Part shown: positions 43,812 through 51,189 of the stretch, in pieces
How the letters are laid out: every line of letters starts with the position of its first letter
Numbering within the stretch: position 1 is the stretch's first letter
Source: an uncultured Eudoraea sp.
GTDB taxonomy: Bacteria > Bacteroidota > Bacteroidia > Flavobacteriales > Flavobacteriaceae
NCBI RefSeq assembly: GCF_947258525.1
Contig: NZ_CAMYIP010000200.1
Location: 1 to 64,000 of the forward strand
Direction: 5' to 3'
Length of the DNA stretch: 64,000 bases
Position numbers and translations under genes: made by a program
Notes under the pieces: generated by a model
What the model was told of the DNA's origin: nothing
Database searches by the model: none
Seen by the model: the letters and a program-made list of their open reading frames with translations, nothing else

Positions 43812-44426
43812 TTAGAAGAGTCCATGTATTTCGGCATCTATCTTATTTATTACTTCACCCAGATGTTCGGGATTGTCGACGAAATCTAATTGATCCACAT
43901 CAATAACCAACAAATTGCCTTTTTCATAGCCATGGGCCCATGCTTCATAACGTTCGTTCAATCGACTTAAATAATCTATAGATATAGAATTCTCGTAATC
44001 TCTGCCTCTTTTGTGTATTTGATTTACCAAATTGGGGATGGAACTTCTAAGGTAAATTAGCAGATCTGGGGGTTGTACCAGGCTTTCCATGAGATCAAAA
44101 AGACTGGAGTAATTGCTGAAATCTCTGTTGGTCATAAGACCCATAGCATGCAGATTAGGAGCAAAAATGTGCGCATCTTCGTAAATGGTCCTGTCCTGAA
44201 TTATATTTTTTCCAGATTGGCGGATCTTTAATATTTGTCTATATCTGCTATTTAAGAAATAGATCTGAAGATTAAAACTCCAGCGTTCCATCTGATTGTA
44301 AAAATCATCCAAATAGGGATTGTCTACTACATCTTCGAAATGAGCCTCCCATCTGTAATGTTTCGATAAAAGCCGGGTTAGGGTAGTTTTTCCGGCTCCT
44401 ATATTTCCAGCTACGGCAATGTGCAT
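43812..44426 (-). CDS. deoxynucleoside kinase
   Basis: This 204-aa kinase phosphorylates deoxynucleosides for DNA precursor salvage. P-loop GNIGAGKTT is at 7-15, the base E31 and DNPYL pair follows, the catalytic DRT is at 78-80, and the lid RGRDYE is near 150. All expected catalytic elements are present, unlike the kinase half of the FolK fusion at 3981-5120. Substrate (dA, dG or other) cannot be fixed from sequence alone. Confidence 0.92.
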   Translation of the reverse strand: MHIAVAGNIGAGKTTLTRLLSKHYRWEAHFEDVVDNPYLDDFYNQMERWSFNLQIYFLNSRYRQILKIRQSGKNIIQDRTIYEDAHIFAPNLHAMGLMTNRDFSNYSSLFDLMESLVQPPDLLIYLRSSIPNLVNQIHKRGRDYENSISIDYLSRLNERYEAWAHGYEKGNLLVIDVDQLDFVDNPEHLGEVINKIDAEIHGLF

Positions 44427-44567
44427 ATAGTGTTTTAATTTATGGTTGGTGTCTTAAATATAAGAGGAACACAATATACAAAGTATCTGCTGGAAGAGAA
44501 AAAATAGTTGTTGAAATACTAGAGATAATTTTGTCTTCTCAAAATTTTTATTTCAATAGCAATTATG

Positions 44568-44575
44568 TATTTTTG
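44568..44575 (+). promoter_or_regulatory. -7 promoter element of metK
   Basis: TATTTTTG matches TAnnTTTG. Transcription would begin near 44582, just before the first stem of the riboswitch at 44587, which supports both calls. Confidence 0.6.
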
Positions 44576-44586
44576 ACAACGTTATA

Positions 44587-44705
44587 TAAGAGGAGGGATT
44601 TGACTGATTGCAACCTCTTAAGCAGGACATATTTTTTGGATACGTTTAAACGCTATTTAAAGATCATTAAGATTCTGCAAAAGAAAAAATGCTAAAGCAG
44701 TTTCT
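44587..44705 (+). ncRNA. probable SAM-II riboswitch, long-loop type, upstream of metK
   Basis: The 353-bp gap before metK contains a 7-bp stem TAAGAGG/CCTCTTA (44587-44620). It encloses GGATTTGACTGATTGCAA, which matches the SAM-II conserved pattern (ATTTnA...ATTGCAA). The downstream conserved GCTAAA is at 44691-44696, with ACTG in the loop (44603-44606) complementary to CAGT (44698-44701), fitting the H-type pseudoknot. About 70 bases separate the halves, as in the long-loop variants. Function is inferred: SAM would repress metK. No other gene is visible in the gap. Confidence 0.72.
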
Positions 44706-44779
44706 ACAGAGTAATCTGAGTTGTAAACTTCTTTTCCAGCAACCGTCAAATCAATTTTAATTTTAAAAAGTAAGTTTTT

Positions 44780-46036
44780 ATGGCCTATTTGTTTACTTCA
44801 GAATCTGTTAGTGAAGGACACCCGGATAAGATTGCCGATCAGATTAGTGATGCTTTATTAGATAATTTTTTAGCTTTTGACCCTGAAAGTAAGGTAGCCT
44901 GTGAAACCTTGGTAACCACTGGGCAGGTAATTTTAGCGGGTGAAGTAAAAAGTCACACCTACGTAGATCTCCAACAAATAGCGCGCGATGTTATAAATAA
45001 AATTGGATATACTAAAGGTGCATATCAGTTTAGTGGTGATTCATGTGGAGTCATATCTTTGATTCACGAGCAGTCTAAAGATATAAATCAGGGTGTTGAA
45101 CGAGAAAAAAAGGAAGACCAAGGCGCTGGTGATCAGGGCATGATGTTCGGTTATGCGACTAACGAAAGTGAAAACTATATGCCATTGGCATTAGACATTT
45201 CTCATCGAATACTTAAGGAACTATCCTTAATAAGAAGAGAAAATAAAGAAATACCTTATCTAAGACCTGATGCCAAAGCACAGGTTACTATTGAATATTC
45301 GGATGATAACAAACCTCTTAGAATTGATACAATAGTAATATCTACGCAGCATGATGAGTTTGACAAGGATGATGATAAAATGCTGGCAAAAATCAAAGAA
45401 GACCTTATTAATTTTTTAATCCCAAGAGTAATAGCAAAATTACCCCAGCGTACACAGGGCTTGTTTAATGATAAGATTACATACCATATTAATCCTACAG
45501 GTAAATTTGTGATTGGAGGGCCACATGGGGATACCGGATTAACCGGAAGAAAAATAATTGTAGATACTTATGGAGGTAAAGGTGCACACGGTGGGGGCGC
45601 TTTCAGTGGAAAGGATCCTAGTAAAGTAGACCGGAGCGCCGCTTATGCAGCAAGACACGCGGCAAAAAATTTGGTTGCGGCAGGAGTTAGTGATGAAATA
45701 TTGGTACAGGTAAGTTATGCTATTGGATTGGCCGAACCTACTTCTATTTTAGTAGACACTTATGGAACTTCAAAAGTGGCTATGAGCGATGGTGAAATTG
45801 CCCGTAAAGTGGCAGAACTTTTTAAAATGAGGCCTTTTGATATAGAAAACCGTCTTAAATTAAGAAATCCCATTTACCTGGAAACTGCCGCTTATGGACA
45901 TTTTGGGAAGGAACCTAGAATGGTGTCAAAAGTATTTGAATCTCCCTATAATGGCAGGGTTGAAAAAGAAGTGGAGTTATTCACATGGGAAAAATTAAAT
46001 ATGGTAGATAAGGTAAAATTGGCATTCAATTTGTAA
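44780..46036 (+). CDS. metK: S-adenosylmethionine synthetase
   Basis: MetK makes SAM from methionine and ATP. The 418-aa protein has SEGHPDKIADQISDALLD (about 10-27), the GAGDQGMMFGYA signature near 116 and GGGAFSGKDPSKVDRSAAYAAR near 272. Its expression is probably controlled by product through the riboswitch in its leader. It heads the methionine-related region that runs to 62.9 kb. Confidence 0.97.
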   Translation: MAYLFTSESVSEGHPDKIADQISDALLDNFLAFDPESKVACETLVTTGQVILAGEVKSHTYVDLQQIARDVINKIGYTKGAYQFSGDSCGVISLIHEQSKDINQGVEREKKEDQGAGDQGMMFGYATNESENYMPLALDISHRILKELSLIRRENKEIPYLRPDAKAQVTIEYSDDNKPLRIDTIVISTQHDEFDKDDDKMLAKIKEDLINFLIPRVIAKLPQRTQGLFNDKITYHINPTGKFVIGGPHGDTGLTGRKIIVDTYGGKGAHGGGAFSGKDPSKVDRSAAYAARHAAKNLVAAGVSDEILVQVSYAIGLAEPTSILVDTYGTSKVAMSDGEIARKVAELFKMRPFDIENRLKLRNPIYLETAAYGHFGKEPRMVSKVFESPYNGRVEKEVELFTWEKLNMVDKVKLAFNL

Positions 46037-46050
46037 TTTTTTGTACAAAT

Positions 46051-46063
46051 AATAGGAATATCC
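46051..46063 (+). promoter_or_regulatory. ATAGGAAT-type half-site before the metY riboswitch
   Basis: AATAGGAATATCC matches the left half and centre of the 20-bp palindrome upstream of the Rrf2-family gene (52397-52416). It lies in the -33 region of the metY promoter. I infer a second, imperfect site for the same regulator. Confidence 0.35.
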
Positions 46064-46076
46064 GTTTTTCCATACC

Positions 46077-46084
46077 TATATTTG
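46077..46084 (+). promoter_or_regulatory. -7 promoter element of the metY operon
   Basis: TATATTTG matches TAnnTTTG and lies 30 bp before the SAM-I aptamer, as expected for a leader-controlled gene. Confidence 0.55.
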
Positions 46085-46113
46085 CTTTTACAAAGTTCAA
46101 TCACTTGTTGAAA

Positions 46114-46221
46114 AGTTATCAAGAAAGGTGGAGGGAATAGACCCTTTGAAACCTTAGCAACCCTTTGTTTCAAATACAAAGAAGGTGCTAAATTCTATCA
46201 CATGTATATGTGACAGATAAC
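46114..46221 (+). ncRNA. SAM-I (S-box) riboswitch upstream of metY
   Basis: S-box elements are in order: P1 GTTATC, AAGAAAGGTGGAGGGA, AGACCCTTTGAAACCTTAGCAACC, then AAGGTGCTAAATTCTA, a CACAT/ATGTG stem and closing GATAAC. P1 (46115-46120 with 46216-46221) pairs perfectly. A competing pairing of GATAA with TTATC at 46231-46235 may form the switch. It fills the 368-bp gap between metK and metY. SAM binding should lower expression of the downstream genes. Confidence 0.92.
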
Positions 46222-46404
46222 AATAAAGAATTATCCCTTGTAATTCGTCTTTCTATATAACATTTTAATATTTCCCGATTGCTCAGCGCAGCACTTAGGT
46301 TTGGATTGTACTGAAATGGATGTATAAAAATGATCCTAAAGTAGTTTTGAAAACAAATTGAATTAAGAACCAGTATTCATATTGAATACAAAGAAACAAA
46401 CGTT

Positions 46405-47697
46405 ATGAGTGAACACAAATTTTCTACAAATGCCTTGCACGCCGGACACGACCCAAGCACTAATGCCGGTACACGGGCAGTACCTATCTATCAAAGTACC
46501 GCCTATGTTTTTAATGATTCTGAACACGCGGCTAATTTATTTTCCTTAGCTGAGTTTGGAAATATTTACACCAGGATTAATAATCCTACGAATGATATTT
46601 TAGAACAAAGGCTTGCAGCCCTTGAAGGAGGTATTGCCTCAGTGGTTACCTCGTCAGGAACCGGAGCTATTAATACCGCGCTATTGGTTCTGTTGAAGAC
46701 CGGAGATCATATTGTAGCTTCTAATAGTTTATATGGGGGCACTTATAATTTGTTGAGTGTTACCCTTCCCCGTCTTGGGATTACTACAACATTTGTTGAT
46801 CCCTCAGATGCTTCTAATTTCGGAAAAGCAGTAAAGGAGAATACAAGGGCTATTTTTGTAGAGTCGCTGGGAAACCCAAAATTGGATGTTCTTGATCTGA
46901 AAGCTATCTCAGCTGAAGCAAAGGCGGCTAAAATTCCATTTATTGTTGACAACACTGTAGCTACACCTGCCTTGTTGAATCCGATTGAGCATGGAGCCAA
47001 TATTGTAATTCATTCTCTTACCAAATATATCAATGGAAACGGTACTGCGCTAGGTGGAGTGGTAATTGATGCCGGAACTTTTGATTGGGCCAACGGAAAA
47101 TTTCCGGAATTTACTGAACCTTCACCGGGATACCATGGTTTGGTATACCATGATGCCTTGGGACCAGCTGCATTTATCGCTAAAGTGCGTATTGAAGGCT
47201 TAAGAGATCATGGTGCCTGTTTGAGCCCGTTTAATGCATTTCAAATAATACAGGGTCTGGAAACGCTTGAAGTACGGATGCAAAAACATAGTGAAAATGC
47301 CCTTGAACTGGCAGAATGGCTTGAAAACAGGGATGAGGTTACCTGGGTGAACTATCCGGGCTTAAAAAGCAGTAAATATTTTGCTGAGGCCGAAGCTTAT
47401 TTGCCAAAAGGACAAAGCGGATTAATAACTTTTGGAGTTAAAGGTGGATTCGATTCAGCTAAGAAAATTGCCGATGGAACCCAAATCTTCTCATTATTGG
47501 CTAATATAGGTGATACTAAATCTTTGATTATTCATCCGGCGAGTACTACGCATCAACAATTAGATGAGGCGGCCCAGGAATCAACAGGAGTAACTAAAGA
47601 TCTAATACGTTTATCTGTCGGATTGGAGAATCTGGATGATCTTAAAGCAGATCTGGAACAAGCTTTTAAGACAATTGATAAATCTGTTCCGGCTTAG
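46405..47697 (+). CDS. metY: O-acetylhomoserine sulfhydrylase
   Basis: MetY joins sulfide to O-acetylhomoserine to make homocysteine. The 430-aa enzyme belongs to the Cys/Met-metabolism PLP family. The start HAGHDPSTNAGTRAVPIYQSTAYVFND, the PLP lysine in SLTKYINGNGTALGG and the long insertion FPEFTEPSPGYHGLVYHDALGP are the features separating MetY from cystathionine enzymes. It follows a SAM-I riboswitch and precedes the MetX fusion that makes its substrate. Confidence 0.94.
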   Translation: MSEHKFSTNALHAGHDPSTNAGTRAVPIYQSTAYVFNDSEHAANLFSLAEFGNIYTRINNPTNDILEQRLAALEGGIASVVTSSGTGAINTALLVLLKTGDHIVASNSLYGGTYNLLSVTLPRLGITTTFVDPSDASNFGKAVKENTRAIFVESLGNPKLDVLDLKAISAEAKAAKIPFIVDNTVATPALLNPIEHGANIVIHSLTKYINGNGTALGGVVIDAGTFDWANGKFPEFTEPSPGYHGLVYHDALGPAAFIAKVRIEGLRDHGACLSPFNAFQIIQGLETLEVRMQKHSENALELAEWLENRDEVTWVNYPGLKSSKYFAEAEAYLPKGQSGLITFGVKGGFDSAKKIADGTQIFSLLANIGDTKSLIIHPASTTHQQLDEAAQESTGVTKDLIRLSVGLENLDDLKADLEQAFKTIDKSVPA

Positions 47698-47784: not shown

Positions 47785-50700
47785 ATGAAAGAATTGGATA
47801 CCATACTTCAAAAATTAGATATCCCTCAGTTTAAAACCTTTGGAGGTGTTGTTCAGGATATTGAGCTATCCTATCAATTGTTTGGCAAGGACTTGCACTC
47901 TGCACCGATAGTAGTAGTAAATCATGCCCTTACGGGTAATTCAAATGTCGCCGGGGATGATGGCTGGTGGGCATCATTGATTGGAGATGACAAATGTATT
48001 GACACTACAAAATATACTGTGTTAGCCTTCAATATACCGGGAAACGGTTATGACGGTTTTGTCGTGGATAATTACAAAGATTTTGTTGCAGGTGATATTG
48101 CAAGGATATTTCTTCTGGGATTAAAAGAACTTAATATAGATCGCATTTATGCGCTGATTGGGGGTTCATTGGGAGGTGGAATTGCGTGGGAAATGGCTGC
48201 AATAAATCCAATGCTTACAGAACATTTGATCCCAGTGGCCGCTGATTGGAAGTCAACAGATTGGCTTATTGCAAATTGTCAGATTCAGGAACAGTTCCTT
48301 GTCAATTCAAAGCAACCCGTTCACGATGCCAGGATGCACGCTATGCTATGCTATAGAACTCCCCAGTCTTTTAAAGCAAGATTTCAAAGAAGCACCAATG
48401 AAGAATTACAGGTTTTTAATGTTGAAAGCTGGCTTACACATCATGGAAAAAAATTGAATGAAAGGTTTCAGCTTTCAGCATATAAATTAGCCAACCAATT
48501 ATTAAAAACCATAGATATTACGAGAGATGGGGAGGAGGCATTTAATAATCTTCAAAACAGTAACACTAATATCCACATTATAGGAGTAGATTCTGATCTT
48601 TTTTTTACAGCAAATGAGAATAAGGATACCTTTAAACAGTTAGCTCAGGCCAAAAGTAATGTTACCTATGGTGAAATACAGTCATTGCACGGGCATGATG
48701 CATTTTTGATTGAATTTGAACAAATGCAGCAGTTGCTCAAAGGAGTTTTTGATACCAATGGGAAATCTGCGAGAATAAAAATATTAAAATTTGGAGGTAA
48801 GTCACTTTCCAATGGAGAAGGTTTGGGAAGGGTATTGGATATTATATCCGGCAAAGTCGAAAATGGGGAAAATATCGCTGTAGTTTTATCAGCACGTGAA
48901 AAAGCAACAGATCAGTTGGAAGAGATATTAGATAAAGCCGCAAAGGGATTAGATTATAGGAAAGATTTTGAAGATTTTGAAAGATACCAGAAACACACCT
49001 TTAAAAATATCAGTCTTTCAGAGGAATTCCTGGAATTAGTAAAATTGTTTGAAGGAGTTACTTTGCTTGGCGATTATAGTCCTAAAATTAAGGATCAGGT
49101 TCTGGCTTATGGGGAGTTAATATCCGGTAAGCTAATCACAAAATTACTTATTGGAAATGGCATCAATGCAAAACTACTTGATAGTCGCCGACTAATAAAA
49201 ACCGACGATACTTATGGAGATGCAAAATTGCTCGAAGATGTTTCAAGGGAAAATGTAATCCATGAATTTTCAAAATTGAAACCAGATGAGGTGCCTGTGA
49301 TCACCGGTTTTATAGCTTCTACCGAAGCAGATGAAACTACAACATTAGGACGCAATGGCAGCAATTATACAGCTTCTCTTATCGCAAATTTTCTGGACGC
49401 CGAAGAATTGCAAAATTATACTCATGTGGATGGTATTTTCACTGCTAATCCTGAATTTGTTTCTGAAGCCCAAAGAATTGAACAATTGTCATATAGTGAG
49501 GCAAATGAACTTGCTAATTTTGGCGCAACCATTTTACACGCAAAGACTATCATCCCCTTAATTGAAAAGAATATTCCACTGAGGATACTCAATACTTTTA
49601 ATGATGATAATGAGGGAACACTTATCAGCGCCAGATCCAGCAAAGAAGGAATAAAATCATTGTCTGTAATAGAGAACGAGGCTCTAATTAACCTGGAAGG
49701 TAGGGGCTTATTAGGGAAAGTGGGAATTGATGCACGTATTTTCAGGACCCTCAGCCAAAATAATATAAGCGTAAGTATCATTTCCCAGGGTTCTTCGGAG
49801 AGAGGAATTGGTTTGGTTGTAAACTCAGAGAAAGCACATTTGGCAAAAAGGGCTCTGGAAATGGAATTTGAGAGTGATTTTCAATCCCGTGATATTAATA
49901 CAATAACAATTGTAGACGAAGTTTCGGTCATTTCTATCGTGGGTCAGGATCTTAGTACTTTTCACAAACCATACAACGCTCTGATCAAGAATCAAATAGT
50001 CCCCCTATTGTTTAATAATACAATTTCAGGAAAAAATGTGAGCTTGGTGGTTAAGAAATCAGACCTGCACAAAGCACTTAACGTAATGCACGGTCAAATT
50101 TTTGGCATTAGCAAAAAAATTAATCTGGCCATTTTTGGACATGGAAATGTGGGAGGTACCTTAGTAGATCAGATATTGGATTCTAAGAAGGGAATTGAGG
50201 AAAGAAAAGGGATCAATCTTAATGTATTTGCCCTGGCAAATTCTAAAAATATACTTTTAAACAAAAATGGAATTTCTAAAAAATGGGAGGAGGAGATTAA
50301 TGAAAAAGGCGTTCCCTATACTGTGGAGGATATTTTTAATTATGCCAGAATACATCATCTTGAAAATTTAATAGCCATTGATAATACCGCAAGCCAGAAT
50401 TTTGTGGCCAATTATTTTGAATTTATCGAAAATGGATTTGATCTGGTGTCTTCAAATAAAATTGCAAATACCCTTGGATTTGACTACTACAAATTGATTA
50501 GAGAGGAGTTGGCAAAAAAACAAAAACGATATCTATATGAAACTAATGTTGGTGCAGGATTACCATTAATAGATACCATAAAACTTTTGCATCTATCGGG
50601 TGAAAATATTACACGCATTAAGGGTGTTTTCTCTGGGTCTTTGAGTTTTATTTTTAATACTTTTTCCGAAAAGGACGTGTCCTTTTCAGAAATTTTAAAC

Positions 50701-51189
50701 AAAGCCATTTCAAATGGTTTTACTGAACCCGATCCAAGAGAAGATTTATCCGGGAATGATGTGGGTAGAAAGTTGTTGATATTAGCGCGGGAATTGGAGC
50801 TCGAAAATGAATTTGATGATATTTCAATTCAGAATCTTATACCGGTATCCCTGCGCAAGGGAAGTGTAGAGGAATTTTTAAGTGAACTTGAAGTACTAGA
50901 TGATTTTTTTAGTAAAATTAAAGAAAACCAGGAACCAAATCATGTGCTCCGATATATTGGCGATTTATATGGTGATTTGCAGAAGGAAAAGGGAAAACTG
51001 GATGTAAAACTGATATCTGTCCCTAAGGAGAGTGCCCTGGGCCAGGTTAAGGGTTCAGATTCCATTATTGAGATTTATACTGAATCGTACGGGGAGCATC
51101 CTTTAGTGATTCAAGGAGCAGGAGCAGGAGCTGCCGTAACCGCTCGTGGTGTTTTTGGGGATATATTACGCATTGCTGAAAAAATATGA
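47785..51189 (+). CDS. thrA: MetX-aspartokinase-homoserine dehydrogenase triple fusion
   Basis: This 1134-aa protein contains three enzymes. Residues 1-325 are a homoserine O-acetyltransferase-like alpha/beta hydrolase: HALTGNSN, S128 in GGSLGGG, D271 and a His in LHGHDAFL. Residues about 330-770 are aspartokinase (KFGGKSLSNGEGL, then TGFIASTEADETTTLGRNGSNYTAS) with two ACT-type regulatory repeats. Residues about 776-1134 are homoserine dehydrogenase (AIFGHGNVGGTL, SSNKIAN, GAGLPLIDTI, KGVFSGSLSFIFN, TEPDPREDLSGNDVGRK). One chain thus covers the first and third steps from aspartate to homoserine plus activation of homoserine for MetY; only the aspartate-semialdehyde dehydrogenase step is missing. 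It lies 88 bp after metY. Confidence 0.95.
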   Translation: MKELDTILQKLDIPQFKTFGGVVQDIELSYQLFGKDLHSAPIVVVNHALTGNSNVAGDDGWWASLIGDDKCIDTTKYTVLAFNIPGNGYDGFVVDNYKDFVAGDIARIFLLGLKELNIDRIYALIGGSLGGGIAWEMAAINPMLTEHLIPVAADWKSTDWLIANCQIQEQFLVNSKQPVHDARMHAMLCYRTPQSFKARFQRSTNEELQVFNVESWLTHHGKKLNERFQLSAYKLANQLLKTIDITRDGEEAFNNLQNSNTNIHIIGVDSDLFFTANENKDTFKQLAQAKSNVTYGEIQSLHGHDAFLIEFEQMQQLLKGVFDTNGKSARIKILKFGGKSLSNGEGLGRVLDIISGKVENGENIAVVLSAREKATDQLEEILDKAAKGLDYRKDFEDFERYQKHTFKNISLSEEFLELVKLFEGVTLLGDYSPKIKDQVLAYGELISGKLITKLLIGNGINAKLLDSRRLIKTDDTYGDAKLLEDVSRENVIHEFSKLKPDEVPVITGFIASTEADETTTLGRNGSNYTASLIANFLDAEELQNYTHVDGIFTANPEFVSEAQRIEQLSYSEANELANFGATILHAKTIIPLIEKNIPLRILNTFNDDNEGTLISARSSKEGIKSLSVIENEALINLEGRGLLGKVGIDARIFRTLSQNNISVSIISQGSSERGIGLVVNSEKAHLAKRALEMEFESDFQSRDINTITIVDEVSVISIVGQDLSTFHKPYNALIKNQIVPLLFNNTISGKNVSLVVKKSDLHKALNVMHGQIFGISKKINLAIFGHGNVGGTLVDQILDSKKGIEERKGINLNVFALANSKNILLNKNGISKKWEEEINEKGVPYTVEDIFNYARIHHLENLIAIDNTASQNFVANYFEFIENGFDLVSSNKIANTLGFDYYKLIREELAKKQKRYLYETNVGAGLPLIDTIKLLHLSGENITRIKGVFSGSLSFIFNTFSEKDVSFSEILNKAISNGFTEPDPREDLSGNDVGRKLLILARELELENEFDDISIQNLIPVSLRKGSVEEFLSELEVLDDFFSKIKENQEPNHVLRYIGDLYGDLQKEKGKLDVKLISVPKESALGQVKGSDSIIEIYTESYGEHPLVIQGAGAGAAVTARGVFGDILRIAEKI

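Follow-up and report, generated by a model that had tools for sequence, protein, structure and literature searches.

The window, which is the whole 64,000-nt stretch of DNA that was analyzed, encodes S-adenosylmethionine synthetase (metK) behind a SAM-II aptamer and a probable promoter (Table 1). TAnnTTTG is the -7 consensus of Bacteroidota, and it was found no more than 45 nt before the aptamer stem P1 in 211 of the 219 loci parsed, compared to 16.1 in shuffled sequences, at a median distance of 13 nt. The probable -7 element of the window, 11 nt before P1, agrees with the sequence-only reading, in which the aptamer begins just after a predicted transcription start. The metK AUG follows 74 nt past the end of the Rfam match and 78 nt past the end of strand B, the 3' half of the pseudoknot. 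A SAM-I match (RF00162, 46113-46223, 79.7 bits) begins 1,407 nt beyond the SAM-II aptamer, and the gene 3' of it, at 46405, encodes a Cys/Met-metabolism PLP enzyme by Pfam, which bears out the claim that a SAM-I element 1.4 kb away serves the next operon. RF00162 has two matches in the whole genome, 46113-46223 and 57732-57853, both in the window with the sole SAM-II match. The second precedes a gene (58017) whose product reads by eye as a homocysteine methyltransferase. Moreover, the 1134-aa open reading frame at 47785-51189 presumably fuses a homoserine acetyltransferase-like part to an aspartokinase-homoserine dehydrogenase, as judged by eye.

Table 1. Features of the metK leader and gene, in window coordinates
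Feature	Position	Strand	Basis
Probable -7 promoter element TATTTTTG (TAnnTTTG)	44568..44575	+	Sequence; 11 nt before P1
SAM-II aptamer, RF01726 long-loop form	44584..44705	+	55.3 bits, cut-off 44
P1 5' strand UAAGAGG, partner 44614-44620	44587..44593	+	Sequence; outer pairs not conserved
Strand A GAUUUGAC, aptamer core, target of the anti-aptamer	44597..44604	+	Pairing with 44745-44752 predicted at p 0.96 in the ensemble without constraints
P1 3' strand CCUCUUA	44614..44620	+	Sequence
Hairpin insert ("long loop") 3' of P1 and 5' of the distal strand	44622..44678	+	MFE -12.5, z -2.9
Strand B AUGCUAAAGCAGU, 3' half of the SAM-II pseudoknot, starts with AUG1	44689..44701	+	Rfam alignment, complementarity
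23-codon upstream ORF from AUG1, judged nonfunctional as a peptide	44689..44760	+	Peptide and frame vary
Strand C AAACUUCUUU, pairs with B segment AAAGCAGUUU (44694-44703), 9/10 pairs, SAM-free fold	44725..44734	+	p 0.90
Strand D GCAA..GUCAAAUC, anti-aptamer to UUGC (44608-44611) and GAUUUGAC (44597-44604)	44739..44752	+	p 0.91, 0.96
metK, S-adenosylmethionine synthetase, 418 aa	44780..46036	+	Pfam PF00438, PF02772, PF02773

There is very probably a true SAM-II riboswitch upstream of metK. When the 64-kb window was searched by cmscan with the RNA family models of Rfam release 15, RF01726 (SAM-II long loop) matched on the forward strand with an E value of 7e-8. Rescanning a 2.1-kb stretch gave an E value of 2.3e-9 and aligned model positions 1 to 60 of 60, with the extra bases falling in the loop that joins P1 to the distal strand. 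SAM-V was absent among the matches with an E of <=1 in 44300-46420, and genome-wide the window aptamer was the single RF01726 match at an E of <=0.001. Thus, the SAM-II long-loop element that had been proposed before metK passed the check proposed with it, scoring against SAM-II models (55.3 bits against a gathering cut-off of 44), and the next gene has the domains of metK. The aptamer would presumably bind SAM.

The aptamer is not unusual among relatives. RF01726 was found at an E of <=0.001 in 283 of 299 genomes sampled from the Flavobacteriaceae (275 over the cut-off), and thus the aptamer itself is of an already known kind and ordinary in the family. Matches at the same threshold were found in 63 of 395 genomes sampled across the phylum (57 over the cut-off), and RF01726 was found in 111 of 121 genomes of a second family of the same class (92 over the cut-off, 19 of the 111 matching genomes having no match over it). 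The nearest named relatives of the metK gene are from Flagellimonas flava (83%), whose genus belongs to the Flavobacteriaceae, and Euzebyella saccharophila (82%), and RF01726 exceeded the cut-off in 13 of the 20 named loci scanned, which overlap the sampled genomes and were not counted as a replicate. "SAM-II long loops" are entered in Table 1 of Weinberg 2010 (PMC2864571) as a cis-regulatory RNA and switch of Bacteroidetes and marine samples, and the window shares with RF01726 the aptamer sequence, P1 and the pseudoknot, the long loop, and the phylum, such that no difference is seen in the aptamer. SAM-I was found in 234 of 298 family genomes, and at least about 217 would have both classes, provided that both samples comprise the same genomes. 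A 2007 survey reports both SAM-I and SAM-II in no species (PMC2258182).

The anatomy of the aptamer follows the SAM-II layout. The 7-bp stem and the ATTTGA..ATTGCAA loop described by the sequence-only reading are found in the sequence, and the expanded loop is found in the Rfam alignment. In relatives, the outermost P1 pair was kept in 65 of 166 sequences compared to 55.2 after permutation, and pairs 2 to 4 were kept in 44, 55, and 64 compared to 64.0, 62.4, and 62.6. Thus, the outer pairs are hardly kept beyond chance, and conservation covers less than the full 7-bp stem. Three loci outside the counts (L137, L162, and L202) carry a compensatory P1 variant in which AGGG/CCCU replaces GAGG/CCUC, and by eye an anti-aptamer-like word is also present in their leaders. 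Loop L1 (AGGGAUUUGACUGAUUGCAA) contains AUUUGA...AUUGCAA and is complementary to the GCUAAAGCAG strand as expected for the pseudoknot, with ACUG (44603-44606) facing CAGU (44698-44701) and GCA (44610-44612) facing UGC (44690-44692). One P2 base, the U of AUG1, keeps a standard pair with its L1 partner in 205 of the 219 loci, including G-C in two and U-A in one. Finally, a helix was predicted in 73 of the 74 loops of at least 19 nt among relatives (mean z of -4.0), and thus the "long loop" is, in the predicted folds, an inserted hairpin.

How the aptamer might act on metK is suggested by the leader between them. By eye, metK leaders 3' of the aptamer frequently contain GUCAAAUC(CUUCC), the complement of the aptamer sequence (GGAAG)GAUUUGAC, as well as CUUUAGC-like words that complement GCUAAAG. 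In the window, GUCAAAUC at 44745-44752 complements the 5' core of the aptamer, and strand C is predicted to pair with strand B in two blocks (44694-44697 with 44731-44734 and 44699-44703 with 44725-44729). The pairing probabilities quoted for the window (0.96, 0.91, and 0.90) were computed with exact coordinates, and by them its predicted SAM-free fold is clear. The helix of A with D in the window alone is not significant, as 2 of 20 shuffled leaders equalled it, and the case therefore rests on the family.

Family comparisons were made with 228 loci (L001 to L228), comprising the full set of 63 phylum-sample matches, 136 further matches of the family sample taken with top scores first, and 29 lower-scoring matches. 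The 228 loci are a nonrandom draw and the tests share loci, and thus the tests are not independent. Parsing succeeded for 219, leaving out L080, L087 to L091, L137, L162, and L202, and an aptamer-like element before metK is present in the sequences of all nine. A metK gene was found for 211 of the parsed loci, the window included, and 210 metK leaders remained, again with the window, once eight loci without a nearby metK and L028, in which metK is too distant, were set aside. The aptamer start was placed approximately 3 nt late in 9 of the 210, including the window and L208.

Complementarity between leader and aptamer far exceeds that of shuffled leaders across the family. Seven-mers like GUCAAAUC occur in 78 of 210 leaders compared to 3.6 in dinucleotide shuffles, and the best A:D helix reaches a score of at least 20 in 101 compared to 9.5. 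In the folding ensemble, eight or more pairs between A and the leader were predicted in 199 of 210 leaders compared to 88.4 when leaders were shuffled, pairing of B (the UGCUAAAG strand) with the leader reached 0.5 or more in 129 compared to 28.6, and both pairings were predicted together in 123 compared to 6.4. Pairing of B was measured by ensemble, replacing a contiguous helix score that underestimates it in the window and in the clade with GGCAG because a C-U mismatch interrupts the helix. Moreover, the mean probability of P1 in the same fold was 0.02 in the 210 leaders compared to 0.23 in shuffled leaders.

The aptamer core and the anti-aptamer also change together. Covariation was scored with the core as an anchor and at the flanking positions alone, such that the helix was not picked by its fit, in 111 of the 210 loci (85 distinct rows; 93 had no core, 5 ran into an edge, and 1 lacked AUUUG). 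Watson-Crick pairs at the flanking positions numbered 327 in the 85 rows compared to 283.8 (standard deviation of 6.6) after permutation, a count reached by 0 of 2,000 permutations. The signal lies at positions -1, -2, +1, and +2, with 53 pairs compared to 34.1 at position -2, and counts at -3, -4, and +3 did not exceed chance by permutation. When phylogenetically independent contrasts were drawn on the metK tree, the two loci of a contrast both had a Watson-Crick pair at position -2 in 8 of 14 cases, with 4 more containing one G:U, and at position -1 in 5 of 10; double changes were few at -3 (2 of 19), +1 (1 of 9), and +2 (1 of 6). In L208, which belongs to the genus of the window, UUUGGCUGAU pairs with AUCAGCCAAA where the window has GAUUUGAC with GUCAAAUC, and the aptamer base differs. 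That contrast was scored as not kept, as a different core was taken as the anchor in L208. We conclude that the competing fold is well supported as a conserved and covarying feature of the family, and that as a regulatory mechanism it is putative.

What the competing fold would do to metK was modeled by blocking the aptamer strands, which is only a proxy for SAM binding; ViennaRNA cannot form the pseudoknot. With the strands blocked in the 210 leaders, positions -15 to -1 before metK close by 0.08 to 0.13 and positions -35 to -16, a frequent site of the anti-aptamer, open by 0.11 to 0.26, compared to shifts of -0.02 to -0.04 in shuffled leaders. Counting changes of more than 0.05, 107 leaders close and 16 open between -12 and +3, and 64 close and 36 open between -20 and +15. 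Closing is limited to about -15 to +4, and +5 to +19 opens slightly, as it does in shuffles. In the window, the change is slight and varies with the stretch chosen (+0.105 for -12 to +3, 0.49 to 0.46 for -15 to +3, and -0.008 for -20 to +15), and the SAM-state helices that touch the metK start and first codons have probabilities of 0.28 to 0.43, with none above 0.43. A strong hairpin onto the start region (C:E, score of at least 20) was found in 25 of 210 leaders compared to 2.1 expected, for example in L043 and L049, and in these leaders the partner strand of GCUAAAG pairs as well with the bases right before the AUG. The B:C and C:E strands overlap in 19 of 210 compared to 4.6. A start-sequestering C:E hairpin was considered as a universal part of the platform and was rejected, being clear in the subset of 25 only.

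We propose that when SAM is scarce, leader strand D would take the 5' core of the aptamer (A) and strand C would take the 3' strand (B), P1 and the pseudoknot would be undone, and the bases just before the metK AUG would lie open, such that metK could be translated. When SAM is present, the aptamer, being transcribed first, would lock, C and D would stay free, and the start region would tend into other pairs with less translation of metK. Both folds and the change in accessibility are predicted, and we infer the OFF direction, the cotranscriptional choice, and the pairs that hide the start in the window. It is likely that the SAM-II aptamer controls metK translation at a distance through the competing fold, as a translational OFF switch. 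With less assurance, we lean toward the broader view that across the Flavobacteriaceae the metK SAM-II is an indirect translational switch, of neither the direct-occlusion nor the terminator type, in which two coevolving leader strands separately disarm the two halves of the pseudoknot and gate the start codon. One reason for caution is that a published SAM-II study (PMC9373788) draws an alternative fold without SAM.

SAM-II is usually described as acting by direct occlusion or by control of a terminator, and neither fits the leader of the window. A 2024 review (PMC10907184) classes SAM-II and SAM-V as direct-occlusion riboswitches whose P2 contains the ribosome binding site. A metK ribosome binding site inside P2, as in the metX type, was not found in the window, where P2 ends at 44701 and the AUG is at 44780. 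Occlusion might instead act close to AUG1, on a standby or entry site for ribosomes (A-rich AAAAAAUG). SAM would close the pseudoknot over this site, from which metK, 74 nt downstream, would be served, as reported for Sinorhizobium meliloti metA (PMC9373788). Besides that precedent, AUG1 is AUG, GUG, or UUG in 204 of 219 loci (189, 8, and 7, respectively) and lies a median of 78 nt from the metK AUG in the 210, but it is AAG, GAG, or ACG in the other 15, and its frame relative to metK is not fixed (62 in frame and 89 and 59 in the other two). Moreover, S. meliloti uses a Shine-Dalgarno sequence and none is evident by eye in the window leader, and occlusion leaves the covarying anti-aptamer unexplained. 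We consider direct occlusion of this sort unlikely. Attenuation, in which SAM binding would permit a terminator before metK, is known from proteobacterial SAM-II, where terminators are common (PMC2258182 and PMC1273637). No terminator-like site was found between P2 and metK in the window, however, and terminator-like hairpins occurred in 1 of 210 leaders compared to 4.2 in shuffled ones, by a search blind to terminators without a U-tail. Terminator control was rejected as highly improbable.

The conserved AUGCUAAAGCAG, which reads M-L-K-Q, suggested that a regulatory peptide might be made from AUG1 (MLKQ...) and coupled to translation of metK. An open reading frame of 23 codons starts there in the window, and AUG is retained in most loci, but the frame is shifted by GGCAG/GGACAG variants, the length ranges from 4 to 100 codons, no likeness is seen by eye beyond residue 4, and the U of the AUG is the conserved pseudoknot base described above. 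The peptide was rejected as varying in frame, length, and sequence, and we give it very little chance. It is equally hard to credit that the leader complements the aptamer only to help folding, or by chance in AT-rich sequence, with no regulatory role. The window alone does not exceed its own shuffles, as such an account would have it, but the shuffle, permutation, and contrast tests over the 210 loci argue against it.

The competing fold received partial support outside the family. Among 95 loci of the second family, A pairing was found in 62 compared to 36.2 in shuffles, weaker than in the Flavobacteriaceae, and B pairing, in 26 compared to 17.0, was not clearly higher (p of 0.72 for the means). 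Positions -15 to -1 shift in the same direction by a smaller amount (0.012 compared to -0.058 in shuffles), and opening of -35 to -16 in the 95 loci was no greater than in shuffles. Thus, the anti-aptamer platform should be claimed for the Flavobacteriaceae only.

What is new beyond the known aptamer is the conserved competing fold, well supported as a fold of the family, which would be a variant expression platform for SAM-II. The available text of PMC2864571 gives no expression platform for RF01726 and cites Additional File 1 instead. A search of open-license literature, which stopped short of the PMC2864571 supplement, the likeliest place, turned up no earlier account of such a platform for SAM-II of Bacteroidota. 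The metX SAM-II (PMC10907184 and PMC6061858) shares the aptamer class and a translational OFF model but has its ribosome binding site in P2, whereas in the window the metK start is 74 nt downstream and anti-aptamer strands intervene. The nearest layout is that of S. meliloti metA (PMC9373788), with AUG1 at the aptamer, the real start, AUG2, 74 nt downstream, translation controlled at a distance, and an alternative SAM-free fold predicted in Figure 1B of that study. There, however, the downstream start needs the Shine-Dalgarno sequence of the riboswitch, and a terminator predicted to be unresponsive to SAM lies between AUG1 and AUG2. Purine and other riboswitches (PMC2258182 and PMC3723493) likewise have ligand-free folds that pair aptamer strands with the expression platform, but in the window each half of an H-type pseudoknot aptamer would be captured by a leader strand of its own. 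SAM-II is used to illustrate how a ribosome binding site can be occluded directly (PMC10907184).

If the anti-aptamer platform is correct, a whole bacterial family operates this aptamer indirectly, by a logic other than occlusion, and has a SAM-free state with a defined fold that compensatory mutation could test. Bacteroidota hardly use Shine-Dalgarno pairing, and the metK leader is a candidate case of translation control by a riboswitch where such pairing is little used.

Some genomes of the family have more than one SAM-II element. Seven have two matches (G397, G443, G472, G619, G661, G670, and G678; loci L034, L055, L094, L096, L111, L112, and L116), with SAM-I matches in none of the seven, completeness of 66 to 93%, and one of the G661 matches below the cut-off. 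The extra copies, which are not before metK, are followed by a metY-like gene at L055 and L116 and, by eye, by a queF-like gene at L094, L096, and L112 and a DUF6580-like gene at L111. At L034, downstream of position 1560, the extra SAM-II is followed by queF, a gene for a DUF6580 membrane protein, and metH, recognized by Pfam through its homocysteine methyltransferase domain. This run of genes, DUF6580 included, is probably SAM controlled, and the run suggests that DUF6580 might transport a related nutrient. In seven other genomes (G531, G610, G654, G492, G577, G445, and G488), SAM-I and SAM-II are back-to-back neighbors encoded on opposite strands, approximately 126 to 151 nt apart.

A variant of the aptamer carries a hairpin insert in L1 instead. 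In the second family, it was seen in 58 of 99 parsed loci, which were chosen partly for length, with a mean MFE of -6.0 compared to -3.5 in shuffled sequences. Loci with the variant are L261 to L309, L030, L071, L080, L084, L087 to L091, and L339 (Pedobacter). As judged by eye, most of them lack the CAGU strand of P2a, as if the local hairpin substitutes for that part of the pseudoknot.
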